A stretch of 64,000 bases of DNA from Artemia franciscana (lineage: Eukaryota > Arthropoda > Branchiopoda > Anostraca > Artemiidae). The number at the start of each line of letters is the position of its first letter. Position 1 is the first letter of the stretch. Below the pieces are notes generated by a model. That model saw only the letters and a program-made list of their open reading frames with translations, did no database searches and was not told the DNA's origin. The position numbers and the translations under genes are program-made. Positions 3,714-51,850 of the stretch are shown one piece after another. The stretch spans positions 35,374,917-35,438,916 of the forward strand of contig NC_088872.1 of assembly GCF_032884065.1 (NCBI RefSeq), in the 5' to 3' direction.

Positions 3714-5030
3714 TCAAACAGTTTGTGGTAAAGAACTGTAAGTAAGGAGCGACCCAGCTCACTAGCAACCGAAACTCTAAAAAACGGAATTTTGATACCA
3801 ATCGATATAGTAAAAGAATCGAATTTTTATGTTGATTTCAAGTATATAAGTTTCATTAAGTTTAGTCTTACTCATCAAAGCTTACGAGCCCAAGAAAATT
3901 TGCCTCTTTTTCGAAAAAAAGTAGAAACAACCCCTAAAAGTTGTAGAATTCTAATGAAAATTACACCATCAGATTCAGCGTATCAGAGGACCATAATGTA
4001 GGGGTTTCAAGCTCCTATCTTAAAAATTTGGAATTTTGTATTTTCTGCCAGAAGAAAGATCACGGATGTGTGTTTTTTCTTTTTTTTCTTTTCTTTCCAG
4101 AGGTGATCGGATTGATCCAGTGGTCATTGAATATCGGAAGAGGGCTTATCCAAGCGGAATGAAAAGTTCTAGTATCCTTTTTAATGGACCAAAATAACTT
4201 GAGGCCAGGAAGGCCACCTTCCACGCCCCTTTTTCTCAAAATCAGCCAATCAGAATTTTGAGCTTTTGTTCAGCATAGTTGAAAGGCCGAATAACTATGC
4301 GTTTGGAGATATCATAACCCCACAGGCCCTGAGGAGCAAAAACGAGTATTATTTGTCATTGGGAAGTATGCATAAATTTTTCGGTGGGGGGTAAATTTTC
4401 TGCTGGTGGGATTTTCCACGGGGATTATTTTCTATAAGGAGGGAAGTTTCCAAGGAGGGAATTTTCATGGGAAATTTTACACTGGAGGAATTTTCTAGAA
4501 TTCCTAAGCGAAATTCGGCTTATGTCTTGCTTACTCTTCGCCGACTCAATTTTAGAGGTAGGCTAGGAGTAGTTGTCTGGGGTAAATTTTACCAGGATTG
4601 AATTATCTAGAGAATAAATCCGTGAGGAGGAGATAATTTTCTGTGGAATTCTAGCCAGACTTCCGGGCATTATTTAAAAACGATCAAAAATTAGATATAA
4701 AAATCAAGTTTTTCAACTGAAAGTAAGGAGCAACATTAAAACCTAAAATGAAGTGGAATTATTGCGTGTATGAGGGAGTTAATCTTGCTCAATACCTCGT
4801 TCTTTACTCTAAAGTTTGAATTTCGTCCAAATTCTTTAGAGATGACTCCTGGAACACAATGTTCGTTTAATTTGAACAATAAGAAGCTTTTTTTTAAAAG
4901 TACTAACAAACTTTACCGTAAAGAGTAAAGTGTCGAGGAAGAGCACCTCCCTTCATATACGCAATAATTTCTGTTTGTTTTAAAATTCAAAGTTGCTCCT
5001 TACTTCCATTTGAAAAAAACTTGTTTTTCT
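3714..5030 (-). repeat. Palindromic repeat family, copy A (minus)
   Basis: This is a diverged minus-orientation copy of the abundant family best seen at 25958-27660. Its 3' terminus comes first (TTTGTGGTAAAGAACTG, then AGTAAGGAGCGAC). Next come the shared blocks matching 'GATTCAGC', 'GAAACCTCTA'-type motifs and the GATCACCCCTGG-type segment. It ends in a palindrome whose arms (about 4705-4810 and 4915-5018) carry the AACTGAAAGTAAGGAGCAAC motif in both orientations. It is non-coding. Indels distinguish it from the fuller copies. Confidence 0.75.
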
Positions 5031-5921
5031 TTATTTAATAACAACAAAAGAGTAAGGCTAATTGTTTTCCTAGTCTATTTTTCTAAATATAGTTATATTA
5101 AAAAAAGAAAATATTGACATGTACAAATTCGCTTATCTTGCAAATAAAAAAGATACAAGTACGAATAACAATATCGAATATATTGATGTCGCATATCCAT
5201 GATATATAAAATAATGTCTTGGTGTAGTAAATGTTAAATAATGGTAAGGCCATATTTGCTTTGAGTGAGAATTTAATGGAAGATTGTGAAGTATCTCGTG
5301 TCAATAACATGAATAACTAATGTTTGCATCATATTACTTGGATGTCTAAGCACTAATATAATATAATCGGGGATTTTTTTCTTTTTTAAACCAAGTCTAT
5401 CTGTTTTTTAAATAAATCTGTTTCCTTAGTAATTGACATCAAGGTATTACTGTCACTTTTTTAAGTTTGTAGACACTATATGACGTTAATTTTTAACACG
5501 TTGTATTTGGCCACGTTTGTTCAAAAACCTTGCTATTGGCAATAAAAAATACTTATATTGCTTTTTTTGCATTATTATAAACATGATATATTGTGTTGTA
5601 TTTCTAGAATTATAAGGCTCTTTGGAAATATGAAGTGTTTTAATTGCTTTACCCAGTAAAAATAAATCATTTTTTCTAGCTTTGGTGGTGTGTTGAGACT
5701 GAACAGGCTCTGAAAATTATCATTCAGTCGAACATTAACTTATTGCTAGAAAGCAATATACTGAATATAGAAAGCAATATAAAAAGTGCTGAAAGTCAAA
5801 ACTCAAGGAAAAAGAGAAAAAAAAAATGAACGGAAGACCTCTAGACGTACCTATAGGGATCAAGAAATATTGTATATAAGAAAACAAGGGGTCAACTACT
5901 TTCGGAAATCCTGTGCCCATC

Positions 5922-9760: not shown

Positions 9761-9769
9761 GAGGTTAGA

Positions 9770-11290
9770 CCTTCCTATCAAAATTTAAGGGCTTAGAAAG
9801 TTTGTCTGATTTTTTAAATAGGGGGGACCCCTAAATTTAAAGAAATCTTAATGAAAATCACACCATCAGATTCAACGTACCAGAGAACCCTACTATAGAA
9901 GTTTCAAGCTCCTATCTGCCAAAGTCTGGAAATTCGGTGCCTGTTTATTTGCTTTTTTTTCATGGGTGATTGTATTGAAATAATGACCCTAGAAGATCGG
10001 GAGAGACTGCATTCGAACGGAGTGATCAATAAGATTGGAGAGCAACTGGGCCCCCTCCCACGCCCATTTTTTCCCCAAAGTTGTCTGATCTAAATTTTGA
10101 GATAGCTATTTTGTTCAGTATAGTTGAAAGATCAAATAATTATGTCTTTAGGTGTAAAATGACCTCTCTCCCCATATTCCGTGGGGAGATGCCTGTAAGT
10201 TATGAAATTCGGCTGTAAAGTATTATATACGTATAGTATACTTTATAGTAATATATGTATAGTATAGTATACATTATTTACGTATAGTATACTGACATTT
10301 TTGGGGGGGGGTGATTAGGGTGGATTTCGATTGGGAGAACCTTCCTTGGAGAGGGAAATTTCTGGGGGCTGAATATTACAGGGTAAATGTTACACTGGTA
10401 GGATTTGATGGGATTACTATACGAAATTCTTTTTAATTGTCTTATGTCCTCTTTGCCAAGTTTTTCAAGTGGAGATATTACGAGGGAATTATCCAGCAGT
10501 TTTTCCCGCGTGTTTTTGATTTCTGGGAAATAATTTCCACAGAAGGGGGCAGTCCCGGAGTAATCGAGAAACCGATAAGAGATTAGGTATTATTCAAATG
10601 AAAGAATGCTTAGTCGAATTTTTCAGCCTGAAATCGTCCGCAAGCAATTTAAAGGGAGGGGGACTCTCAGCAAGTTTGGAACTGTTTGGAAGGAATTTGA
10701 CGGGAGGGGGGAGGGTTTATTTTATGTTGGATGCAATTTTCACGGAGGAATATCTGTAGGGGAGGGGAATATTTCATAGAGAGTGAACAAGATTTATCGG
10801 CATTATTTGAAACACGAGCAGAAATTATTCCATATATTGAAGGGATGCCCCCACCTTAATACCTTCCTCTTTATGCTAAAGTTTGACTGTTTTTCCCGTT
10901 TTTTAAGAGCGTCTACTGAAACACGGGGGCAGTTTAATCAGAATAGGAAGCTTTTTTTTAAAGTACTATCAGCTTTAGCGCAAAGAGCAAGGTATTCAGA
11001 AAGGGGCAACTTTTTATATACAGGATAAATCTGCCAAAATTGGTATGCAAATTTGCTTTAATATTTCATGTACGGTGAGCCAAATTCGAACATGCATTGG
11101 TTGAAAAACATACAGAAATTAAATAAAAACAACTTTTTTTAACTGAAAGTAAGGAGCGACATTAAAACTTAAAAAGAACAGAAATCATTCCATATATGGA
11201 AGGGGCTGTCCCCTCCTCAACCCCTCACTCTACTCTAAGGTTTTTATTGTTTTAGAAAGCAGAGTTGTTACAAAGAGCCAAACTTTGCAG
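9770..11290 (-). repeat. Palindromic repeat family, copy B (minus)
   Basis: Shared blocks follow each other in reverse order relative to the reference copies. The segment with CACCATCAGATTCAACG comes first (near 9866), then the region matching GGTCGATACGATCACCC-type sequence. A palindrome with TTTATGCTAAAG and CTTTAGCGCAAAGAGC arms spans about 10830-11020. Finally an AACTGAAAGTAAGGAGCGAC motif lies at 11141. Its 3' terminus is missing. It includes a small (TATAGTATAC)-like low-complexity patch near 10215-10295 that other copies lack. Confidence 0.65.
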
Positions 11291-18550: not shown

Positions 18551-18675
18551 ATATGTGTTTTTCCTTTATTTTACCATTAATTTTGTACCACAGAAGTTTA
18601 AGAATTGAAATGGCAAGAAATTTGTTTGAAAAAATTATACCCATACCAGTTTGTTTCCATGTATCTTTTGCTAAT

Positions 18676-19682
18676 TAAATAAAAAAAAACAGGTTTTTTT
18701 TTAACTGAAAGCAAGGAGCGAGATTAAAACTTAAAACGAGCAGAAATTATTCCGTCTATGAAATGGGCTGTCCCCTCCTCAATGCCCCACCCTTTACGCT
18801 AAAGTTTTTATTGTTTCAAATAAAAAATAGTGCTGAAAATCCAGCGCCCCTTCATGGAAACTCTCTTCCCCATAAATTCCTCCATGGAAATATCCTTTCA
18901 CGTAACCCCCTCCCCCGACCCCCCTACCACTAGAGAAAGTCCCCCCTGAAACGTCAGTATACTTCCCAATATCCAGTACTATATGTAAATAATGGGCAAA
19001 GTTCACAACTTGCAGCCCTTCCCCCGGGGACTGTGGGGGATTAAATCGTCCTAAAAGACATACTTATTAAATTTTCGACTACGTTGAACAAAATTGCTCT
19101 CCCAAAATTTTGATCCAGTGACGTTGAGAAAAATGAGCGAAGAAGGGGGTCTAATTGCCCTTCAATTGTTTTGGTCATTTAAATAGAGCACTAGAACTTT
19201 TAATTCCGTTAAAATGATCCCTCTCGCAAAATTCCAGGACCACTGGGTCGATACGATCACCCCTGGAAAAAAAATAAACACGAGTCTTCATCAGAGGTCA
19301 TAGAGGAAGAAATGACATATGACAGCATCCGTGATCTTTCTTCTGGCAAAAAATACAAAATTCCACATTTTCGCAGTTAGGAGCTCGAAACCTCTACAGT
19401 AGGGTTCTCTAATATGCTGAATCTGATGGTGTGAATTTCATTAAAACTATATGACTTTTAAAGGGGTGTTTCCCCTTTTTTAAAAATAAGGCGAATTTTC
19501 TCAGGCTCATAACTTTTGGTGGGTAAAACTAAACTTGATGAAATTTACATATTTCAAAGCAGCATAGAAATCCGATTCTTTTGATGTATATACTGGTATC
19601 AAAATCTCGTTTTTTAGACTTTTGGTTACTATTGAACAGGGTCGCTCCTTATTACAGTTCGTTATCACGAACTGTTTGATAA
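18676..19682 (+). repeat. Palindromic repeat family, copy D (internally deleted)
   Basis: The copy starts with TTAAATAAAAAA and AACTGAAAGCAAGGAGCGAG, has the left palindrome arm, then jumps from the palindrome loop straight to the CTGAAAATCCAGCGCCCC block. About 650 bp of the reference element are missing. The 3' end is complete, ending CAGTTCGTTATCACGAACTG at about 19677. It lies about 125 bp after copy C in the same orientation. Confidence 0.8.
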
Positions 19683-21365: not shown

Positions 21366-23070
21366 ATAAATAAAAAAATAAGTTTGTTTAAATGGAAGCA
21401 AGGAGCGACATTAAAACTTAAAACAAGCAGAAATTACTTCGTATATGAAAGGGGCTTTTCCTTCTCAACGCCCGCTCTTAACGCTAAAGTTGAATTCTTT
21501 CTCTTAACTCTACTTTCTAAAACAGTAAAAAACTTCAGCGTAAGGAGTGGGACGTTGGGGAGGAAAAGCCCCTTTCACATACGGAGTAATTTCTATTCAT
21601 TTTAGGCTTTAATGTCGCTCCTTACTTTCAGTTAAAAAAACTTGTTTTTCATTTAATTTCTGGACGTTTTGAATTAATATATGCTTTGATCTTGGTTCTC
21701 TGCACATAAATAATTAAAACGAAATTTGCATATTAATTTTTTTTTCTAAATGGCTTTCTCATAGTTTTAATCAGAAGATTCCGAGAAGAAAAAGGAGCGA
21801 GGGAGGAGGCTAGTTGCCCTCTAATTTTTTGATTACTTAAAAGGCAACTAGAACTATTAATTTTTTACGAACGTTTTCATTAGCAAAAAATATACATAAC
21901 TTACGAATTAATTTACGTAACGAACTTCTATATTCGTATGTTTTTATTGCGTATATGAGGGGGTTCACCCCCTCTTCAATACCTCGCTCTTTACACTAAA
22001 GCTTAAATTTTTTCCCAATTCCTTAAGAATGACCCCTGAATCACAAAGCCCGTAGAATACATAGTTGAAATTACTAAAAATACTTTAGCGTAAAAAGCGA
22101 GGTTACGAGGAGGTAAACCCCTCATATGCGTAATAATTTCTGTTCGTTTTAAGTTTTAATGCTGCTCCTTACTTTCAGCTGAAAAAACTTTTCATATTCA
22201 TTTTTTCATTGTTTCTTTTAGATAATGCTAGAAAATCCTGCGCCCCCTCATTGAAATTCTCTTCCCCCATGGAAAATTCCTCCATGGAAAGATCCTACCT
22301 CATATCTTCCTCAACTTCTCCCCCCCTGGAAACCAAAAAAAATCCCCCTGAAAACGTCTGTACAGTTCCCAATAACCATTACTATATGTAAACACAGGTC
22401 AAAGTTTGTAATTTGCAGCCCCTCCCATGGGGATTGTGGGGGAGTAAGTCAACCCCAAAAACATAGTTATTAGGTTTTTCGACTACGGGGAATAAAATGG
22501 ATATCTCAGAATCTTGATCCGGTGACTTTGGGGAAAACATGAGCGTGGGAGAGGGCCTAGGTGCCCCCTAATTTTCTTGGTCACTTAAAAAGGACACTAG
22601 AACTTTTAATTTCCATTAGAATGAGACCTATCGCGAATTCTAGGACCACTGAGTCGATACGATCACCCCTGGAAAAAAACAAACAAACAAAAAAACAAAC
22701 AAATAAACACGCATCCGTGATCTGTCTTCTGGCAAAAAATGCGAAATTCCATATTTTTGAAGATAGGAGCTTGAAACTTCTACAATAGGATTCTCTGATA
22801 TGCTGAATCTGATGGTGTGATTTTCGTTAAGATTGTATGACTTTTAGAGGATGTTTCCCCCTATTTTCAGAAAATTTTCTGAGCAAATTTTGTCAGGCTC
22901 GTAACTTTTGATGGGTAAGACTAATCTTGATGAAACTTATACATTTAAAATCAGTATTAAAATGCGATTGTTTTGATTTAACTATTGGTATCAAAATTCT
23001 ATTTTTTAGAGTTTCGGTTACTATTGAGCCGAGTCGCTCCTTACTACAGTTCATTACCACGAACTGTTTG
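21366..23070 (+). repeat. Palindromic repeat family, copy E (full length)
   Basis: This is a complete 1.7-kb copy. It opens with AAATAAAAAAATAAGTTTG and a first palindrome (about 21366-21660). A second palindrome (about 21950-22190) follows, then the conserved 3' half with TCGATACGATCACCCCTGG and GCTGAATCTGATGGTGTG. It ends GTCGCTCCTTACTACAGTTC and the hairpin CAGTTCATTACCACGAACTG. No protein is encoded. See the findings for why I suspect a Helentron-like non-autonomous element. Confidence 0.85.
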
Positions 23071-24095
23071 AAAAAACTGTTCAAATCTTGACAAAATCGG
23101 AGGACGAATAGTTTTTACACTAAAATGTTCAGTAAAGATCTGTTTAAAAGTCCACAAAAATCTGAAGGCGGAAAATGCCTCAAAATTGCACTTGAAGGCT
23201 TGAATTTTGGCCCAAAAATAAAAAAAATAGATGTTTTGACTTTGAATGCGTTTTTAAGAGCCTTTACAGTGTCTTTGGCCGGCTGAGAACTAATATTAGC
23301 TTTAAAGTTGCTTTAGACTTCAGTTTCACTAGAAAAATACACAGAATTCTGCATATAAGGGCCTGAAAATATTTTTTTCTTGGAATATCCTTTTCTATGA
23401 AATATTCTTTTCTTACCTACTGAATTCTACAAAAAATGGGCACGAAAGACCTTGCGACCTCAAATTCGCGGAGCCAAAACTTGTGAAGCGGTCCAATTTT
23501 GAGTCAAAACACAAAAGTTCTTTTGCGTTTGACGTATTAGAAAACATTACGAATTTGAAAACATATTACCTATCAGCCTTTGAGGTTTTGATAAGTCCCG
23601 AAAAAGAACATATTTTGGGCACTCCCTGGCTTCAAAATTGTGTGAAGTTTTTGTGTGCTATCCTCCGGACCAGGTATGGAAAAAGTTCCAAAGCTGTCAG
23701 TAGCAACATTCAACAGAATCCAAAAAGTTGCCGACACTTTAGCAGCACAACGTGTGTCTTGGCAGCTTCTCTTTGAGGGAAAAGTATTTTTGTATGTAAA
23801 AATGGTATTTTCAGACAAAACATACCAACAAATTTGAAAACTGCCACATAGATTTTTAGCACAAAACACATTTGTGTTGCAATTTGTCCTGTCTCAAACC
23901 ACAGAATGACTTAAGTTTTACAGACTAAATATAGCCTACACTCATAAACTTATTGTTGTTTCTGGATAAATTCTAATCCCTCTTAACGTTTCTGGGTAAA
24001 TACTCCTCTCTTACCCATGGAAAACCTACATATTTCCAGATTAGGTCTCGTATTAATATTATTATCCTTTAACTCAGGCATATGTTTATTTTCAG

Positions 24096-24915: not shown

Positions 24916-25957
24916 GTTCTATTAAGATATGGATTTTATTTATTTGTTTAGTCTTTTGTACTTTTATTTCTTTCTTTTGTTTGTGTTGTTCTTTGTCTAT
25001 TTCTATAGATGATTAACTAAGTTTTATTTCTTTTTTTGTCCCCGTTGATAAAGACTCTCGGATGTGGAGTTAAAATATTTGATTTTTTTTAAATTAGTGT
25101 TTTGTTGTTGCTTTTTTTTTTAGTACGGTTTTAGTATGCCTATCACAGCTTTATTTAAATTAAACCTTTTTCTCTTTTAAACGCTCTATTGTAAAACGAA
25201 AAGCGGTGTTGTCTAAGAAATTGTCTAAGAAATTATTTATGCTGGATTTTTTTTAAGAGGACTGCAATTTGAAGCAAAAACTAAATAAAATGCCTGTTCA
25301 TATTAAGGTACAGCCACAAAAATTGCCTACGAGCTCTTTTCCTCTGAACAGCTTGAACCTTAAAACCTTAGTCTCTGAGAAAATGGACCCCAATGCACAA
25401 GCAAAATTTTATTTTTGGGAGTGTAGACCCCCAAAACAATTGTTGCCCAAAATGGCCAAAATTTTTTTTATTAGCCTGAAATTTTCAAGGATCCTTGCCC
25501 AGACTGAGAGGAACTCACGTTTTTGTTTGGAAGGGCGAGGGTATTAGATTGCCCAATAAAGAGCTAAAAATACTGTTGTAATGATCAGTTTGTAAATGGC
25601 AACCAGTTAATCCGCGGGTCAAGAGAAACCTATTGTAAAAAATTGGCTATGGGACATAGTCCCCACAAAAGTGGGGCCCATAAAGGATCCGAAACTTTTC
25701 TGATTAGCTTAGGATTTACTTCCTTAATTCTTTGGACCAAGAGGAAACCAACCCACAATAACTATTAAAAAATAATTGGTTCACCGAAAAAGGCCAAAAA
25801 GGGGCAACAATTTCTTTTCTTTACAGATTGAGATTTAACTTCGCAAGTCCCAGGGACAAGTAGACCCTAATGTGTAAGAATAATTTTAGCATATACGAAC
25901 AAAGAAACCTCAGCAAAGATAAAAACTATTGGAAGCGTTACTTGTCTCTAACTAATA

Positions 25958-27660
25958 TTAAATAAAAAAACAAGTTTTTTTAACTGAAAGTAAGGAGCGA
26001 CATTAAAACTTAAAACGAACAGAAATTACTTCGTATATGAAAGAGGCTGCTTCCTCATAAACGCCCCGCTCTTTACGCTAAAGTTTGACTCTGTCTCTCA
26101 ATTCTTCTTTTTAAAACAGTCAAAAACTTTAGCGTAAAGAGCGGGGCGTTGATGAGGAAGCAGCCTCTTTCATATACGAAGTAATTTCTGTTCGTTTTAA
26201 GTTTTAATGTCACTTCTTACTTTCAGTTAAAAAAACTTGTTTTTTTCATTTAATTTCTGAACGTTTTTGAATCAATGCATGTTTTGATTTTGGCTCTCCG
26301 CAGAGGAATAATTAAAACGAAATTTGCATTTTTTTTTTTTTGGCTAAATGGCTTTCTCATAATTTTGATCGAATGATTTTGAGATAAAAAGAGCGGGGGA
26401 GGAAGCCTAGTTGCCCTCCGATTTTTTGGTTAATTAAAAAGGCAACTAGAACTTTTAATTTTTTACGAATATTTTTATCAGTAAAAGATTTACGTAACTT
26501 ATAAATTAGCTTACGTAAAGAACTTTTGTATTCTCATATTTTTATTACATATATGAGGGGGTTCGCCCCCTTGTCAGATCCTCGCTCTTTACACTAAAGC
26601 TTAAATTTTGTCCCAATTCATTAAGAATGACCCCAGAATCACAAAAGCCGTAGAATAAATAGTTGAAATTACTAAAAATACTTTAACGTAAAGAGCGAGG
26701 TATTAGGAGGAGGTGATCCCCTCAAATGGGTAATAATTTCTGTTTGTTTTAAGTTTTAATGCTGTTCCTTACTTCCAGCTGAAAGAACTTTTTCATATTT
26801 ATTTTTTCATTGTGTTTTTAAATAATGCTAGTAAATCCTGCGCTTCCTTCATGGAGATTTTCTTCCCCCATGACAAATTATCGATGGAAAGTTCCCCCAG
26901 CATATCTTTCTCTTCTCAACCCCTCCCCCAACCAAAAAAATCCTCCTGAAAACACCTGTACACTTCCCAATAACCAAAACTATATGTAAGCATTGGTCAA
27001 AGTTTGTAATTTGTTGCCCCTCCCATGGGGACTGTGGGGGAGTAAGTCGTCCCCAAAGACGTAGTTATAAAGTTTTTCGACTACGCTGAATAAAATGGCT
27101 ATCTCAGAATTTTGATCCGTTGACTTTGGTAAAATAATTAGCGTGGGAGGGGGCCTAGGTGCCCTCCAATTTTTTAGTCACTTTAAAAGGGCACTAGAAC
27201 TTTTCATTTCCGTTAGAATGAGCCCTCTTGCAACATTCTAGGACAACTGGGTCGATACGATCACCCCTGGGGAAAAAAAAAACAAACAAAAAAACAAATA
27301 AACACGCATCCGTGATCTGCCTTCTGGCAAGAAATACAAAATTCCACATTTTTGTAGATAGGAGCTTGAAACTTCTACAATAGGGTTCTCTGATACGCTG
27401 AATCTGATAGTGTGATTTTCGTTAAGATTCTATGACTTCTAGGGGGCGTTTCCCCCTATTTTCTAAAATAACGCAAATTTTCTCAGGCTCGTAACTTTTG
27501 ATGGGTAAGACTAAACTTGATGAAACTTATATATTTAAAGTCAGCATTGAAATGCGATTCTTTTGATGTAGGTATTGGTATCAAAATTCCATTTTTTAGA
27601 GTTTTGGTTACTATTGAGCCGGGTCGCTCCTTACTACAGTTCGTTACCACGAACTGTTTG
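25958..27660 (+). repeat. Palindromic repeat family, copy F (full-length reference)
   Basis: This 1.70-kb copy shows the family plan clearly. The 5' flank is TTAAATAAAAAAACAAG, followed by AACTGAAAGTAAGGAGCGAC. A first palindrome has arms about 25964-26088 and 26122-26247 that differ at very few positions. A unique segment with a poly-T stretch follows, then a second, weaker palindrome (about 26540-26800). The conserved 3' half ends GTCGCTCCTTACTACAGTTC and the hairpin CAGTTCGTTACCACGAACTG, then TTTGA. The 5' and 3' AGTAAGGAGCGAC motifs are inverted relative to each other, so the element has subterminal inverted repeats plus a 3' hairpin. It has no open frame of note. The small frames near the 3' end are translations of conserved non-coding sequence. 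Confidence 0.9.
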
Positions 27661-27716
27661 ATTACTGTCATGGTTGTAAAAACCTATTGCACAAAAATCG
27701 TCGTTCTTATTACGTG

Positions 27717-29450
27717 ATTAAATAAAAAAAAACTAATTTTTTTAGCTGAAAGTAAGGAGCGACATTAAAACTTAAAACGAACAGAAATTACTCCGTATAT
27801 GAAATGGGTTGTCCCCTCCGCAATCCCTCGCTCTTTACGCTAAAGCTTTTAGTTGTTTTAAAAAGTAGAATTGTGGCAAAAAGTCAAACTTTAGCGTAAA
27901 GAGCGAGGGATTGCGGAGGGGACAAGCCATTTCATATACGGAGTAATTTCTGTTCGTTTTAAGTTTTAATGTCGCTCCTTACTTTCAGCTAAAAAAATTA
28001 GTTTTTTTTATTTTATTTCTGAACGTTTTTGAATTAATGCGTGTTTGGTTTTCGCTCTCCGCACATAAATTATTAAAATGAAATTTGCATATTAATTCCT
28101 TTTTTGGCTAAATGGCTTTCTCTTAGTTTTGATCAGACGATTTTGAGAAATAAGGGGTGAGGAGGGAGGCCTAGTTGCCCTGTAATTTTTTGGTTACTTA
28201 AAAAGGCAACTAGAACTTTTAATTTTAACGAACGTTTTTATTAGTAAAAAATATGCGTAACTTAAGAATTAACTTACGTAACAAACTTTCATAACCTTAT
28301 ATTTTTATTATGTATACGAGGGGGTTTTTACCCTCGTTAATACCTCGCTCTTTACACTAAATCGTAATTTTTGTCCCAATTCTTTAAGAATGACCCCTGA
28401 ATCAGAAAGGCCGTAGAATAAATAGTTGAAATTACTAAAAATACTTTAGCATAAAGAGCAAGGTATTTATCTCCTCCTAAATACCTCGCTCTTTATGCTA
28501 AAGTATTTTTAGAACCCCTCATATGCGTAATAATCTCTGTTCGTTTAAAGTTTCAATGCTACTTCTTCCTTTCATTTGAAAAAACGTTTTCATGTTTATT
28601 TTTCATTGTTTTCTTATAGTAATGCTAAAGAATCCTGCGCCCTTTTCATTGAATTTTTCTTCCCCCATGACAGATTCCTCCAAGGAAAGATCCTCCAACA
28701 TAGCCCCCTCTCCTCAGCCCCACCCCCAAACAAAATAAAATCCCCCTGAAAACGTCTGTACACTTCCCAATAACCATTACTATATGTAAACACTGGTCAA
28801 AGTTTGTAACTTGCAGCCCCTCCCCCAGGGATTGTGGGGGAGTAAGTCATCCCCAAAGACATAGTTATTATGGTTTTCGACTATGCTGAACAAAATGGCT
28901 ATCTCAAAATTTTGATCCATTGACTTTGGGAAAAATGAGCGTGGGAGGGGGCCTAGATGCCCTCCAATTTTTTTGGTCACTTAAAAAGGGCACTAGAACT
29001 TTTCATTTCCGTTAGAATGAGCCCTCTTGTGACATTCTAGGACCACTTGGTCGATACGATGACCCCTAGGAAAAAAAAAATAAACAAATAAACACGCACC
29101 CGTGATTTGTCTTCTGGCAAAAAATACAAAATTCCACATTTTTGTAGATAGGAGCTTGAAACTTCTACAGTATGGTTCTCTGATACGCTAAATTTGATGG
29201 TGTCATTTTCGTTAAGATCCTACAACTTTTAAGGAGTGTTTCCCCCTATTTTCCTAAATAAGGCAAATTTTCTCAGGCTCGTAACTTTTGATGGGTAAGA
29301 CTAAACTTGATGAAACTTATATATTTAAAATCAGCATTAAAATGTGATTCTTTTGATGTAGCTATTGATATCAAAATTCAATTTTTTAGAGTTTTGGTTA
29401 CTATTGAGCCGGGTCGCTCCTTACTACAGTTCGTTACCACGAACTGTTTG
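27717..29450 (+). repeat. Palindromic repeat family, copy G (full length)
   Basis: It has the same plan and orientation as copy F, which ends only 57 bp before. The first palindrome has arms about 27723-27848 and 27882-28008. It shares private differences on both arms (for example CCCTCCGCAATCCCTCG and its complement) that copy F lacks. The second palindrome region carries an extra 35-bp inverted duplication at 28435-28512. The 3' end is CAGTTCGTTACCACGAACTG at about 29427-29446. Confidence 0.9.
28435..28512. repeat. 35-bp inverted duplication with 8-nt loop inside copy G
   Basis: The left arm 28435-28469 and right arm 28478-28512 are reverse complements with one mismatch in 35 bp. The loop is TCTCCTCC. 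Copies E and F have only one arm here and continue directly into the AACCCCTCATATG-type sequence. The arrangement is what a replication template switch across a short palindrome produces. Confidence 0.85.
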
Positions 29451-29822
29451 ACAATTTCAAGATACTTGTGTTTGTAAAAATACGTAATTTGAGCAGGGCT
29501 AATTTTTAGACCATCGTCAGTAAAATTTATAGATACAGTAGTTACGAATTAATTGTTGTTTCAAAACCAAAGTTTATATTTTTTTTTGTATCTTTTTATA
29601 GTCCCATTTTAATTGGTATGAAAATAAGAGTTGACAATTAAGCTTTATTAAAAGCAGCACTTGCATCACTTCATGACGTTACATTTTACCCTAGCATATA
29701 GGGTAACTGGTTTTAAGATTTTTTAAAAAGTTATTTCTTTGTTATAGCCTATTAATTTTACTAATTCTTGGTAGAAAAAAGAGAAGAAAACAACCTAATA
29801 GGTTGTTGATTAGGTTGTTGAA

Positions 29823-31483: not shown

Positions 31484-32166
31484 TTTATTAATAAACAGAA
31501 TTATAAACAACAAAGAGAGATAAAACTCTACAAAAAAAACCTCAAACGAGACGACGGCCAGTAGAGACGAACGACTAAAACAACGCGGATATTTCGCCTG
31601 TATCCAAACAAGGCGTCCTCAGCACAAGATAAAAAGAAAACTAAACTAAAACAAATAAAAACCACCACCAATAATAATAAATACAATTGTCGCTACTTAT
31701 CCACGTAGGGAAAAGAAGCTATTCGAGTTACTTCAATGAGAATCAAAGAGCAACTGAGGAAAAATTATGAAAATTGAAACGTAGTTAACTAAAATTTTTA
31801 ACTAAAAAGTAACTAAAAATTGTAACTAAGTAACTAAAAGTAACTAAAAAGTAACTAAAAAATTTTAACTAAACATTGTTAACTAAAAAGTTAACTAAAT
31901 TTTTTCCTCAGTTGCTCTTTGATTCTCATTTGTTTTTATCTGTATATTGGTGGTACTTATTTGTTTTTGGCTTAGTTTTTTTTTTATCTTGTGCTGAGTA
32001 CGCCTGGTTTGGATACAGGTGAAATATCCGTGTTGTTTTAGTCTTTCCTCTCTACTGGCCGTCGTCTCGTTTGAGGTTTTTTTTTGTAGTTTTATCTCTC
32101 TTTGTTGTTTATTGTCATGTCTGGCCAGTTCGGCTTAAGAACTTTTATTAATAAACAGAATTATAA
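31484..32166. mobile_element. Long inverted repeat flanked by 23-bp direct repeats
   Basis: A perfect 23-bp direct repeat (TTTATTAATAAACAG then AATTATAA) lies at 31484-31506 and 32144-32166. Between the copies, the left arm (31507 to about 31768) and right arm (about 31900-32113) are inverted. Both contain GGCCGTCGTCTCGTTTGAGG and GAAATATCC with TGTTGTTTTAG. The loop (about 31770-31898) is a run of AACTAAAA-like units. The direct repeats look like a target duplication, although 23 bp is long for one. A single-arm relative of this family brackets the insertion at 42.4-44.9 kb. No coding capacity. Confidence 0.7.
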
Positions 32167-33465: not shown

Positions 33466-33779
33466 TTGTTTTTTTTTTACAAGTGGAGGGAATGTTTAGA
33501 CAGTGCAAATCCCATTAAGGGCTAATGCTCATTTCACGAGGTAACAAATCTCAATTCAAGCATTTGTGCTGAATAGAAGACTCGAAATAAGAAACAACAT
33601 ATTGTGTAAGCACTTAAAGAATGGGTGCGATGAAACACATTACCAGAATACACAATTAGTTTATAATCAAACAGAAAGCCTGCCAAAACGGTGAAAACTT
33701 CTTTATTTGTTCTTGGCAAACTTTCATTGAATAAATTAGTTTTGGTGACCTTGAGTACTGTTTTACCTTAGGCTTTAGA

Positions 33780-34017
33780 GCGTCCTCTCTTTGCCGAACA
33801 AACAAATGTCGTATTATTCTACCTAATTTGTTTACCTCACTTTACCTTACTTTTACCTTGCTTTTACCTTACTTTATATTGCGTCCTCTCATTGCTGAAC
33901 AAACAAATTTCGTATTATTCTACCTAATTTGTTTACCTCATTTTACATTGCTTTTACCTTAACTTTACCTTACTTTACATTGCGTCCTCTCATTGCTGAA
34001 CAAACAAATTTCGTATT
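33780..34017 (+). repeat. 101-bp tandem repeat, 2.4 units
   Basis: GCGTCCTCTC motifs begin at 33780, 33881 and 33982, exactly 101 bp apart. Each is followed by TTGCYGAACAAACAAAT and TCGTATTATTCTACC. Inside each unit a TTTTACCTTAC motif is itself repeated. The units are nearly identical, so the duplication is recent. Confidence 0.9.
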
Positions 34018-34389
34018 AGAAAGTAGCTCTCAAGATTCAACGAAAAAAAAAATCACCAACAGAACATATAAATAGTAGAAAGTAAAAATTAGAAATAACA
34101 TGTAGAGTGCTACAAAATTGAAATGTCAGAACGAAAATTTGACAAGAAAAAAAACTGCTTCTATTTTGATACCAAGATACAATAAATGACAGCACACCTT
34201 TACATAATCGTCTTGCATCAAGGAAGAACAGCAAAAAAAAAACAAAAAAAAAATAAATAAAAACATCCACCAGAAGCCCTATAAGGACAGAGTGTCCAAC
34301 ATTAGCAACAGTAATCATATGTGTCTTAGTAATATACCTTAGATTAGTAAGTGTGAATATCGGATTGATCAAATTAAAAACAATATGGA

Positions 34390-36707: not shown

Positions 36708-37503
36708 TAAGTAAAAAAAAACAAGTTTTTTCCACTGAAAGTAAAGAGCAACATTAAAATTTAAAATGAACAGAAATTATTACGTATATGAGGGGGTTGC
36801 CCCCTCCTCAACACCTCGCTTTTCACGCTACAGTTTTTCGGCACTTCAGAAAAGTTACTTATTGTTCTAATTAAATGGCTCTTGTGTTTTAGGAATCGTT
36901 TTTAAAGAATTGTGCAAAATTTAAACTTTAGCATAAAGAGTGAGATGTGGGGAGGGGCAACTCTCCTCATATACGTAATAATTCATGTTCGTTTTAAGTT
37001 TTAATGTTGCTCCTTACTTTCAGTTGAACAAAACTGTTTTTTTTAGTTAAGTTCTGATCTTTTTACATAATGCCAGGATACTTTTCGTTTCCGTTAGAAT
37101 GAGCCCTCTTCCGAAGTTCTAGGCCCACTGGGTCGATACGACCCTCGTGGAAAAAAAAAACAACAAACAAATAAACACATATTCGTGATCTTTCTTCTGG
37201 TAAAAATTACAAAATTTCACATTTTTGCAGATATGACTTGAATCCTCTATAGTAGGGTTCTTTGACACGCCGAATCGGATGGGGTAATTTTCATTAAAAT
37301 TCTATTACTTCAAGAGCGTCTTTGTCGCTTTTTCGAAAATCAGACAAATTTTCTCAGGTTCGTAGCTTTTGATGGGTAAACTAAACTTAATGAGACTTAT
37401 ATATTTAGAATCAGCATAATAAGCCAATTATTTTGATATATCTATTGGTATCAAAATCGAGTTGGACCGGTCTTTACTTACAGTTCGTTACCACAAACTA
37501 TCT
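36708..37503 (+). repeat. Palindromic repeat family, copy H (internally deleted)
   Basis: The 5' palindrome (about 36708-37050, with CTGAAAGTAAAGAGCAAC) is followed directly by the 3' third of the element (TTTCCGTTAGAATGAGCCC onward). It ends near CAGTTCGTTACCACAAACT. The middle of the reference is missing. Divergence is higher than in copies E-G. Confidence 0.75.
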
Positions 37504-37609
37504 GATTCCCCATCAAAATCCTAACAGAGATCATTGAAAAATTTATCTTTTTTTCTGTCTTACCAAAAGTATTATATTCATAGAACTTTATAGTATCATG
37601 AAATGCAAT

Positions 37610-38965: not shown

Positions 38966-39704
38966 TACTCTTGTGATGAATTTTCTTGAACCTGTTCATT
39001 TTATTCTGTTAAATAGGACAATAAAAAGAGGTTCAATTTGGCATCTGATTAGTAAGTTTAAATTTAGTTTTTCTATCGCTATTCTATATTTTTTTTTTTA
39101 ATGTCTGAATCTATAAGGGATTTAAGTTCGAGGGGGAGAATTGTCCTTTTACGAAAGAGATATTGATTAAATAAATTGATCCTTTTGCCAGGAATCCTTG
39201 TCGCTTAAAATTTACTGTATTTTGTTTCATTTTGCACGCAGATTTAATTGCTTTTCGATTTGAGAGTTTTTTCCTAAACGTATTTAAAAATAAACTTATT
39301 CCTACGAAAAAAAATCCTGAAATATATTCCCTGTCATCCAACCACCGCTGATATTTTGGCGTCTGGTCCTCCCCCCCCCCGAAAATCTTACGCCGGCGCT
39401 GATGCCACTGACTGATATATTTTGTCATGGTCAACTTGTCATGAAATTAGAAATCACTTTTAGGATAGCATTTGTCAACTCCTGAGTGTGAATGTAATTA
39501 ACATAAGCCCCTAACAAATGTGTGACTTTTTTACGGCTAGCATTACAACAGCAGCTTCTTAGCTAATGCATCCGGTTTCCTTATTTATCTAAGACAATGA
39601 AATTCAGCAGTATCAAACTGTGAACAGTTCAACTATTGGAAACTTCTCAAACTGGCTGTTTAAAAGGAGAATCGTGACCTTCTTTATAATAAGATAACAA
39701 TAAA

Positions 39705-39908
39705 GAAGTTTTTCAACTGAAAGTAAGGAGCGGCATTAAAACTATAAACAAACAAAACTTACTCCGTACGTGAGGGTGAACGGCCACCTCCTCAAACTCC
39801 CGCTCGTTACACTGAAGTTTTTTAGTGCTTTAACAAATCTTCTTGTTCATATTCAATGGCCCTAGTTACAAAGAGTCAAACTACCGTAAAGAGCTTGGTG
39901 TTAAGGCC
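39705..39908 (+). repeat. Palindromic repeat copy J, split by a LINE
   Basis: The left arm begins TCAACTGAAAGTAAGGAGCG. The loop and the start of the right arm (CCGTAAAGAGCTTGGTGTTA) follow, then the copy stops at the LINE. The rest of the arm (TAAGGAGGGGGTTGC) resumes at about 42275. The shared TAAGG is a candidate target duplication of the LINE. Confidence 0.7.
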
Positions 39909-42275
39909 GTTAAGAATTTTAAGAATTTAATTTTAAGAATTTAGGCCGTTAAGAAAGAGGCCAAGGAATTTTACACCTAAATGCCCATGGATGTCTAGAG
40001 GTCTGATCAATGCAACCCATATGAAGGCGTCTTTGTTCAAGGCTGCATGTAAAAGTAAGACACAGGAAGATCTTCTGAAGTATAAACATTACAAAAATGT
40101 GCTCACTTCTTCAGTTCGCTTAGCAAAAAAGCTGTATTTTTCACGTCGAATTAATGAGTGTAAAGGGAATTTGCGCAAGGTTTGGACTGTAATTAATGAA
40201 GCTCTCTCCCGTAAGAAACTCAAACAATCTTCCCCATCTCTTTATAGGAAAGCTGATGGATCTGTTGTGGATAAAAAATCCTTAGCAAGTGCCTTCAATT
40301 CGTATTTCACCACACTTCCCTCAGTTCTCATTCCACCTCTGAGTAGAGTAAGTTGTTTTCCTATGACAGAGAAGTCTTTTTTCCTTTCCCCATGTAGTAC
40401 TACTGAGATTTCTATTATTATTTCTCAACTTCCAAGTAGTTGTTCAGTTGATAGTTTTGGTTTGAGTAATAATGTCCTTAAAAAAATCAGTCAGTTTGTT
40501 TCTCATCCCATCTCACATATAACTAACCTCTCTCTTTCTTCTGGTATTTTTCCTCATTTATTTAAAGTTGCTACCGTTGTACCCTTGCATAAAAAAGGTG
40601 ATTCTTCTCTAATTTCAAATTATAGACCTATTTCTCTTCTTCCCGTCATCTCAAAGGTTGTTGAAAAAGTAGTGTATCGTCGACTCTCTTCATTTGTATT
40701 TAGTACTAATTCGACTGCTGGAAATCCTCTCATCACTAACCATCAGTATGGTTTTCGTCCCTCATTCTCTACCTTGCACGCACTTTCTGATGCAACTGAG
40801 TTTGTGCGTGTTAATCTGGACAAGGGCTTGTGTGTTTTGGGTCTATTTCTCGACTTTTCTAAGGCCTTTGATATGGTTGACCACAATGTTCTTCTGTCTA
40901 AACTATCTTTATTTGGAGTGCATGGAGTCTCACTAGAATGGTTTAGGTCCTACCTCTCAGAGAGATCTCAGTATGTTTTGGTTAACTGTACTTCTTCCTC
41001 TACTTTGCCTGTATTGAAAGGTGTCCCACAAGGCTCTGTGCTTGGTCCACTTTTATTTCTAATTTACATCAATGATTTTGTTGATGGTCTTCATCCCCAT
41101 GTTCACCCTGTTCTTTTTGCTGATGACAGTAACTTTTTCATTGCCTCGGTGGACCTGCCATCTGCCACTTCTATGGCTCAAGGTCTTCTTGATAAAATAA
41201 AGGATTGGTGCTGGTCAAATGGTATGGCTCTTAACAGCCGAAAGAGTGCCATTGTCAACTTCAGGACCCCTTACCGTATGCGAGACGTACAGGAGCCAAT
41301 CACCCTGACTTTTGGGAATGATATTATACCACAAGCTACTGTGGTGAAATTTCTTGGTGTGTATCTTGACTGTTTTCTTTCTTTCAAACCGCATATAACT
41401 CACACCCGTTCCTTAATCCTCCGCCAGTCTTCAATGTTGCACCGGATTAACTCATTTCTTCCTCCTGATATTATGGTTTCTCTTTATTATGCTTTTATTT
41501 ATCCTTACCTTTCTTATTGCTGCTCTGTCTGGGGTAATAATAATAAATCTCTTCTCTGCTCACTTCAAAGAGCCCAAAATAGGGCAGTGAAGGCTACTTT
41601 TCTTCTCCCTCGGCTTTACCCTTCCTCTGATCTTTATAATGATACTGGAATAGCTCCGCTGGATCATATTATAGGTAAAAGTACCCTTTATTTTGCGCAT
41701 TCTGCTTTTCTAGGTACTCTCCCACCGCCCCTACAGCAGTTTTTCTCACGGACAGGCTCAGGTAGGTACTTTTCTTCTTTACGTAATTCTTCTCGACGAT
41801 TTATTTTACCAAAACGATCTTCTACAGCAAGCCAGAGGTCTCCAGTATATCAATCAATTCTATTATGGAACTCCATCCCTTCGGATGTCCCTCTTTTTCT
41901 TTCTGCAAAGGCATTATTTCGTCGGGTATTTCCAATTCAATAATTTTTCTCTCTTTATTAATCCTTTCCTAATTTGTATGTCTCTTCTCTTCTTTTAAAA
42001 TCATTTTCAGCTATATGTTAATCTCCTTCTAAATCTTCTATCTGTTAAATATCCTATCTATTCAATGTCCTTGTCTTGTTCCAGTGTTTTTTTTTTCTTT
42101 TTTTTCTTTTTTTTTTTCTTTTTTTTTTTTTGTATATATTTTATAGTAGTGTTTTATTCTTGTTCTCTGTGGTCCATTACAAGCAAAGCTTCTTGGGCCT
42201 AGTAACCACTTTACTTTTGTAATAGTTTTTTCTTTTAGTATCAATAAATTGATTGATTGATTGATTGATTGATTG
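39909..42275 (+). mobile_element. Non-LTR retrotransposon, 5'-truncated, recent
   Basis: It lies inside copy J of the palindromic repeat and ends in a short tail of ATTG units after AATAAA at 42242. The tail replaces poly(A), as in several LINE groups. The 5' end carries a jumbled TTTTAAGAATTTA duplication (39909-39955), as often seen at LINE 5' junctions. The endonuclease and ORF1 are missing. The RT frame is open over 650 codons, so the insertion is young. Because the direct repeat TAAGG (or slightly longer) can be read at both junctions, I regard the limits as good to within a few bases. Motifs place it in the broad CR1/L2/Jockey/I group. The clade is not determined. Confidence 0.85.
39991..41943 (+). 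CDS. LINE reverse transcriptase (ORF2 C-terminal 650 aa)
   Basis: The frame is open from before the first Met (it reads PWMSRGLINATHMK across the start) to TAA at 41941-41943. RT motifs follow in order: NYRPISLLPVISKVVEK at about residue 209, QYGFRPSFSTLHAL near 251, LDFSKAFDMVDH near 286, GVPQGSVLGPLLFLIYIND near 344, LFADDSNFF near 374 and VKFLGVYLD near 452. The C-terminal region includes YPYLSYCCSVWG and RSPVYQSILLWNSIP. The FADD is the catalytic box. It would copy its own RNA by target-primed reverse transcription, but the endonuclease half has been lost with the 5' end, so this copy is not expected to move. The absence of stops suggests a recent insertion into intron 3. Confidence 0.9.
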   Translation: MSRGLINATHMKASLFKAACKSKTQEDLLKYKHYKNVLTSSVRLAKKLYFSRRINECKGNLRKVWTVINEALSRKKLKQSSPSLYRKADGSVVDKKSLASAFNSYFTTLPSVLIPPLSRVSCFPMTEKSFFLSPCSTTEISIIISQLPSSCSVDSFGLSNNVLKKISQFVSHPISHITNLSLSSGIFPHLFKVATVVPLHKKGDSSLISNYRPISLLPVISKVVEKVVYRRLSSFVFSTNSTAGNPLITNHQYGFRPSFSTLHALSDATEFVRVNLDKGLCVLGLFLDFSKAFDMVDHNVLLSKLSLFGVHGVSLEWFRSYLSERSQYVLVNCTSSSTLPVLKGVPQGSVLGPLLFLIYINDFVDGLHPHVHPVLFADDSNFFIASVDLPSATSMAQGLLDKIKDWCWSNGMALNSRKSAIVNFRTPYRMRDVQEPITLTFGNDIIPQATVVKFLGVYLDCFLSFKPHITHTRSLILRQSSMLHRINSFLPPDIMVSLYYAFIYPYLSYCCSVWGNNNKSLLCSLQRAQNRAVKATFLLPRLYPSSDLYNDTGIAPLDHIIGKSTLYFAHSAFLGTLPPPLQQFFSRTGSGRYFSSLRNSSRRFILPKRSSTASQRSPVYQSILLWNSIPSDVPLFLSAKALFRRVFPIQ

Positions 42276-51554: not shown

Positions 51555-51850
51555 TCCACAGATTAAAAAGAACGAAATTTATTACGTAGTTGAGAGGGAT
51601 TGCCGCCTCCTCAATACTGCACTCTGTATGGTAAAGTTTTTCTTAGAACTTTTAAAAAAAACTTATTATTCTAATTAAATGGCCCTTGTGTTTCAGGAGT
51701 AATTCTTAGATAATTGGAACAAAAAGTCAAGCTTTAGCGTAAAGAGAGAGGTATTGAGGACGAGACAATCCCTCTTATATATGTAATAATTTCTGTTCGT
51801 TTTAAGTTTTAATGTTGCTTCTTACTTACAGTTGAAAGAACTTTTTTTTT
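51555..51850 (+). repeat. Palindromic repeat family, copy K (palindrome only)
   Basis: Only the first-palindrome unit is present, with a left arm including GAACGAAATTTATTACGTAG and a right arm with TATATGTAATAATTTCTGTT and GTTGCTTCTTACTTACAGTT. The 3' half of the element is absent. The family therefore also exists as solo palindromes. Confidence 0.7.

Follow-up and report, generated by a model that had tools for sequence, protein, structure and literature searches.

How can a transposon keep a long hairpin at its end? Such hairpins should rot unless one side is rewritten from the other, and the question is raised here by a repeat family in which the two arms of a terminal palindrome have changed together in some copies. 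The sample is one window, the whole 64-kb stretch of DNA that was analysed, with a G+C content of 36%. It holds three full units (E, F and G) of a repeat of about 1.7 kb and six shorter or broken copies (A, B, D, H, I and J), and a probe made from the 3' end of the unit matches seven places in it (Table 1). Searches for further copies gave no match in viral contigs with three patterns, in bacterial and archaeal contigs with one pattern, or in phages and plasmids by distant blastn. The window contains no Rfam family at the gathering threshold and no tRNA.

Table 1. Positions of the repeat copies and of their features in the window
Feature	Position	Strand	Remark
Copy A	3714-5042	-	palindrome 4701-5026, long loop
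Copy B	9762-11286	-	3' end not found
B, second palindrome	10811-11028		loop oriented as in A and H
B, right arm of first palindrome	11127-11243		loop oriented as in F
Copy D	18673-19681	+	left arm and partial loop oriented as in G; internal deletion; then 3' part
Copy E	21366-23072	+	5' palindrome arms 21375-21492 / 21530-21647, 17% apart; loop as in F
E, second palindrome	21944-22187	+	
Copy F	25957-27661	+	about 1.7 kb, ends placed by eye
F, left arm of 5' palindrome	25964-26086	+	123 nt; 98% complementary to right arm, separated from it by 37 nt
F, loop	26087-26123	+	orientation as in E
F, right arm of 5' palindrome	26124-26246	-	123 nt
F, second palindrome	26542-26787	+	inner arms 34% apart; loop oriented as in second palindromes of E and G
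Copy G	27718-29451	+	ends placed by eye
G, left arm of 5' palindrome	27719-27848	+	130 nt; 97% complementary to right arm
G, 5' subterminal motif AGTAAGGAGCGAC in left arm	27751-27763	+	13 nt
G, loop	27849-27885	-	inverted relative to F and E
G, right arm of 5' palindrome	27886-28015	-	130 nt
G, inverted motif copy in right arm	27971-27983	-	
G, second (internal) palindrome	28305-28590	+	
G, fold-back inverted duplication in second palindrome	28435-28512	+	stem 28435-28469 / 28478-28512; absent from E and F
G, 3' subterminal inverted motif GTCGCTCCTTACT	29413-29425	-	
G, 3' hairpin just inside 3' end	29426-29447	+	9-bp stem
Copy H	36714-37505	+	long-loop palindrome, then 3' part of element
I, single arm	39700-39820	+	
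J, isolated long-loop palindrome	51585-51847	.	element orientation not determinable

The unit also has a repeat within itself: its positions 411-526 resemble positions 1194-1309 (G 28016-29370; also in E and F), and the right arm of the second palindrome is a relative of the right arm of the first, so that the unit looks as if two shorter elements had been fused or nested. The 3' ends of F (27580-27661) and G (29370-29452) differ at 1 of 82 positions, against 13% in the bodies, and this end appears to be either strongly conserved or recently exchanged.

The original prediction, which had placed the arms of F and G correctly, held that the arms evolve in concert within each repeat copy. For F and G this is the case. 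Left and right arms differ in 3 of 119 aligned columns in F and in 2 of 119 in G, and the arms of F differ from those of G in 17 of 119 columns on the left and in 18 of 119 on the right. The four arms have 20 variable columns; 15 of them are concerted, that is, the two arms agree within F and within G, and F is not equal to G, none is specific to one side, and five are singletons. If the arms had diverged as freely as the copies, with the between-copy rate set at 14.7%, the binomial chance of so few differences would be 9.9e-6 for F (three or fewer) and 1.4e-6 for G (two or fewer). The claims that the F/G differences stand on both arms, and that one master followed by independent decay cannot yield such a pattern, thus hold. 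The 15 concerted changes consist of 10 transitions and 5 transversions, as compared to 92:49 in the unpaired bodies of F and G (Fisher p = 1.0), and their per-site rate, 15/119 (12.6%), is similar to the 141/1059 (13.3%) of the bodies. Unbiased copying from arm to arm predicts this equality. The changes are unevenly spread: the subterminal motif and its surroundings, columns 1-60 of the alignment, have 3 of them and the remainder 12, and the outer portion of the arms may be constrained for some other reason.

The concert does not extend to the other copies. Within-copy arm differences amount to 20/117 (17%) in E, 19/116 (16%) in H and 35/117 (30%) in A, and unmatched arms are found in most copies: E, A, H, J, and the second palindromes of B, E and F. 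These counts were made without the right arm of the second palindrome of G, which is broken by an insertion, the left arm of B and the right arm of D, both absent, and the single arm I. The arms had been expected to cluster by copy in a tree, and among the 14 full arms they do so for F (94/90) and G (98/97) and for no other copy; the arms of E do not pair, and the left arm of A joins the right arm of H (83/80). By-copy pairing in a tree of 22 inner arms is again found only for F (98/91) and G (93/90). The opposite pattern, with left arms and right arms in separate clades, is absent for the 5' palindrome, where the between-copy distance over five copies is 0.213 for arms of the same side and 0.214 for arms of opposite sides. 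The second palindrome, which is truncated on its left side, leans that way, its arms being 0.25 (E) and 0.34 (F) apart within a copy and 0.13-0.21 apart when left arms are compared between copies; the one value available for right arms is 0.30. When the arms of the nine two-armed palindromes were paired in all ways, 12 of the 362,880 left-right pairings, the true one counted, had a mean distance as low as the true one, and 12 of 5,040 when F and G were left out, a test that measures clustering by copy and by subfamily jointly.

The differences in E are of one kind. Called against the majority of the six other arms, all 20 are private to one arm, 11 to the left and 9 to the right, which means that the weaker co-variation ascribed to E is not there, and that the arms of resident copies show no visible homogenisation. 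The same distribution led us to reject conversion in place as a process acting on every resident copy. On a plain reading, E would have been inserted with matching arms that decayed afterwards. F and G seem to be young insertions derived from two sources which were distinct by that time; since their bodies are 13.3% apart and their arms are matched, the co-variation would have arisen in the source lineages. Thus, instead of each copy homogenising itself, as had been proposed, the matching seems to be kept in the source lineages, and we infer that the rewriting of arms acts mainly there.

The strongest clue was missed by the original prediction: some copies carry the loop between the arms turned around relative to others. 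A pairwise comparison against shuffles was made of eleven loops, read in element orientation, and of the loop of J, read on the reverse strand; J was excluded from the argument about orientation, as neither of its flanks clearly matches the element. When the whole palindromes of F and G are compared, the arms match equally well direct (211/247) and reverse-complemented (211/246), but the loop matches at 11/37 positions direct and at 28/37 reverse-complemented. Against the loop of G, the short loops of F, E and B give z values of 1.9, 1.8 and -0.2 in the same orientation and 12.2, 10.9 and 12.6 when inverted. E-F, E-B and F-B share orientation (same-orientation z 9.8, 9.0 and 9.8). The partial loop of D, only 26 nt long, runs opposite to all three (same z 0.9-1.6, inverted z 3.8-5.6; E-D inverted 4.8, same 1.6; B-D inverted 5.6, same 1.6).

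The long loops behave in the same way. Those of A and H run opposite to the loops in the second palindromes of E, F and G, with inverted z 8.1-10.2 for A (same -0.7 to 0.2) and 8.9-15.5 for H (same -0.8 to -0.1). The loops of A, H and the second palindrome of B agree with one another (same z 8.6-15.6; A-H 14.1, A-B second palindrome 15.6), and the last of these likewise runs counter to the second-palindrome loops of E, F and G (inverted z 4.4, 2.6 and 5.0; same -0.5, 0.2 and 1.0). The element orientation of A and H is fixed by the element body and 3' end that follow them, and that of B by its flanks: the sequence behind its first palindrome matches the corresponding flank in E, F and G (z 11.9-18.3), and so does the sequence behind its second palindrome (z 6.0-8.6). 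To account for these orientations, the short loops need at least one inversion, and so do the long loops. A single scheme uniting short and long loops is tentative. G-H (same z 5.2, inverted -0.3), G-A (2.8 and 1.6) and B-H (0.6 and 4.0) fit such a scheme, F against the second palindrome of B (same 3.3, inverted 2.1) and E against it (1.9 and 0.1) go the other way, and several short-long pairs are at chance. The arms of F and G are so alike that a short-read assembly could orient either of their loops either way. If these loops were misplaced, the case for the short loops would rest on E and B against D, and that for the long loops on A, H and the second palindrome of B against the second palindromes of E, F and G. 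The long-loop inversion is independent of the assembly of F and G, because the long-loop palindromes have well-diverged arms.

A further trace is present in G, where the second palindrome, and not the first, has received the fold-back inverted duplication. The stem is 35 nt long with one mismatch, and the loop is 8 nt. An insertion of this kind is left behind when a polymerase folds back, or jumps strand, for tens of bases and then returns.

The ends of the element give an idea of what it is. The comparisons with known systems here and below draw on the available parts of PMC4067079, PMC7492417, PMC3627910, PMC8794818, PMC8604942, PMC4168063 and PMC6649704. As described for Helitron2 in PMC3627910, the 5' motif lies inside a 5' hairpin, and the 3' motif 20-30 bp from the end, before a hairpin. 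The repeat has the same inverted motif at both ends; its 5' motif lies in the 5' hairpin, the palindrome of G folding at -148.8 kcal/mol (z -32.9), and its 3' motif stands 26 nt from the 3' end of G, directly before the small hairpin. The 66-nt 3' stretch folds with z -3.46, and none of 200 shuffles is as good. The motifs AGTAAGGAGCGAC and GTCGCTCCTTACT are exact at both ends in F and G; E and A have one mismatch at the 5' end and an exact 3' motif, and D has two mismatches and one, respectively. Unlike in Helitron2, the arms are about 120 bp long, and the 5' motif of G lies about 33 nt inward, if the shared ATTAAAT/TTAAAT, chosen by eye, is counted as the end, and not 0-2 nt as in Helitron2 (PMC3627910) or 2-4 nt as in mite HINEs. 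The non-autonomous Helentrons known as HINE or DINE-1 (PMC4067079; oyster HINEs, PMC7492417) share 12-15 bp subterminal inverted repeats, a 3' stem-loop and, downstream of the 5' motif, a further copy in inverted orientation, although this copy lies about 207 nt further on here, not 3-22. Target duplication is reported as absent from oyster HINEs (PMC7492417), and here none is visible by eye in the five inserted copies A, D, E, F and G. The window has 18 stop-to-stop ORFs of at least 110 aa. Among the 8 that were scanned, three match reverse transcriptases, one of them below Pfam's cut-off, one has a below-cut-off endonuclease match, and none matches a Helitron or helicase family. With such ORFs the window would appear to be eukaryotic DNA. 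Judged by its ends, the element resembles a non-autonomous Helitron2 or Helentron; we call it "like" these, and claim no membership, because the 5' motif lies too far in and the hairpin is too large to fit. It would presumably move by rolling-circle transposition.

Some neighbouring features of the window can be mentioned here. The ORF at 39937-41943 (668 aa), which starts about 120 bp after the single arm I, has a strong reverse-transcriptase match (E 6.7e-34) and is probably a non-LTR retrotransposon. Two 120-nt inverted repeats at 31532-31651 and 31965-32084, which are 93% complementary and have 313 nt between them, may represent a small inverted-repeat transposon, and tandem repeats with a 101-bp period occupy 33761-34018, their copies 82-86% alike to reference copies.

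Taken together, the loop inversion and the fold-back insertion point to template switching, or to recombination between the arms. We consider it reasonably probable that the repeat is a Helitron2/Helentron-like unit in which template switching between arms operates in the sources and decay follows insertion. The 5' end, where F and G each have a palindrome of about 285 nt, is a hairpin with the 5' motif in the left arm, a loop, and the inverted motif in the right arm. In active source lineages, DNA synthesis would repeatedly change from one arm to the other as template. Where it moves to the opposite arm, one arm would be rewritten from the other, so that a mutation is either lost or found on both; a switch to the sister or opposite strand within the first arm, and back in the second, would turn the loop around. 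After a copy has been inserted and silenced, its arms would decay independently. The mechanism itself is already known. Template switching between the arms of inverted repeats homogenises them, and the spacer becomes inverted when the first switch is intermolecular and within the first arm (PMC8604942). Of these footprints, arm homogenisation is found in F and G and not in E, A and H, and spacer inversion is found, with some short-long loop pairs contrary or at chance.

It is conceivable that the arms, as inverted repeats, instead undergo crossing-over and gene conversion, as is known from plastid inverted repeats and from the palindromes of primates (human and ape Y chromosome). This is the main rival to template switching and would yield both homogenised arms and inverted loops, but we find it unlikely: homologous crossing-over would normally call for longer arms than the roughly 120 bp found here around a 37-nt loop, and the fold-back insertion in G looks like a copying error and not like the product of a crossover. 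The cause therefore seems to us to be template switching. A more unlikely explanation is a rolling-hairpin turnover tied to transposition, in which the 5' hairpin is copied and resolved in each cycle, so that the palindrome flips and the arms are regenerated. Several observations agree with it: the palindrome covers the 5' terminus of the element, both loop orientations are present, the arms are matched in F and G but decayed in the resident E, and the internal second palindrome of the same units is not kept matched. However, the decay of the second palindrome may reflect its length alone, as it is truncated on the left, and its loop is also inverted, in B as compared to E, F and G, though this palindrome is now internal. 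A coupling of arm rewriting to transposition is possible, because the palindrome covers the 5' terminus and the internal one is unmatched. The terminal palindrome of parvoviruses occurs in two orientations, flip and flop, and in that respect is like the one described here, although it belongs to a viral genome. That the 5' palindrome is such a flip-flop terminus, with each cycle of transposition regenerating perfect arms and randomising the loop orientation, is a rather improbable idea; if true, a rolling-hairpin step like that of parvoviruses would be part of the movement of a eukaryotic rolling-circle transposon.

Two further explanations seem very unlikely to us. One is selection for a functional hairpin through stepwise compensatory changes, without copying between arms. 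It agrees with the available parts of PMC3627910, where hairpins are assumed to matter for transposition and where two Helitron2 elements, Helitron-1N1_CQu and Helitron-1N2_CQu, are noted to have compensatory changes in their terminal structures. Stepwise compensation via G-T pairs predicts an excess of transitions and a slower change; here 5 of the 15 concerted changes are transversions, with no route via G-T wobble, the ratio of transitions to transversions equals that of the body and the overall rate is not reduced. It would also leave the reversed loop unexplained. Thus, among the mechanisms offered at the start, arm-to-arm copying is the best reading, and hairpin selection alone is disfavoured. 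The other explanation, no more probable, is an assembly artefact with collapsed arms and mis-oriented loops. Near-identical inverted repeats are difficult for short reads, but private mismatches persist in the arms of both F and G, and inverted loops are also found among palindromes with arms diverged by 15-34% (A, H and the second palindromes of E and F).

Template switching of this kind has been described on a smaller scale. In the quasipalindrome correction of PMC8604942 and PMC8794818, in the parts available, arms are made identical, spacers are inverted and reverse-complement insertions occur, as here; RNA genes are inferred to have undergone arm homogenisation together with spacer inversion, and one example is the inverted loop of MIR633 (PMC8794818). 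The inversions in yeast genes are small, with 2-5 bp of spacer substitutions, and the loops in rRNA are typically 4 and up to 7-8 nt, whereas the element described here combines loops of some 37-95 nt with arms some 120 bp long, and the pattern is repeated across a transposon family. Coding palindromes in the mitochondria of Nematomorpha (PMC6649704) are likewise long inverted repeats with concerted arms, and template switching is proposed as one mechanism for them, but these are organelle genes, and the available text does not mention loop inversion. Nor is loop inversion mentioned in the available text of PMC3627910. The motif strings of the element matched no related paper in the literature, and loop inversion at Helitron-like ends was not met in searches of one open-access library, mostly of titles and the beginnings of abstracts; a search there on the homogenisation of inverted repeats likewise gave nothing. 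What we judge to be new is the setting at a transposon end, with 119-bp arms and invertible loops.

A multi-copy family of this kind records the rewriting, as paired changes, together with its by-product, the reversed loop, and an older copy shows the decay once the rewriting has stopped. Loop orientation and arm identity, compared between young and old copies, bear on whether the rewriting is an error of replication or a step in Helitron-like movement.
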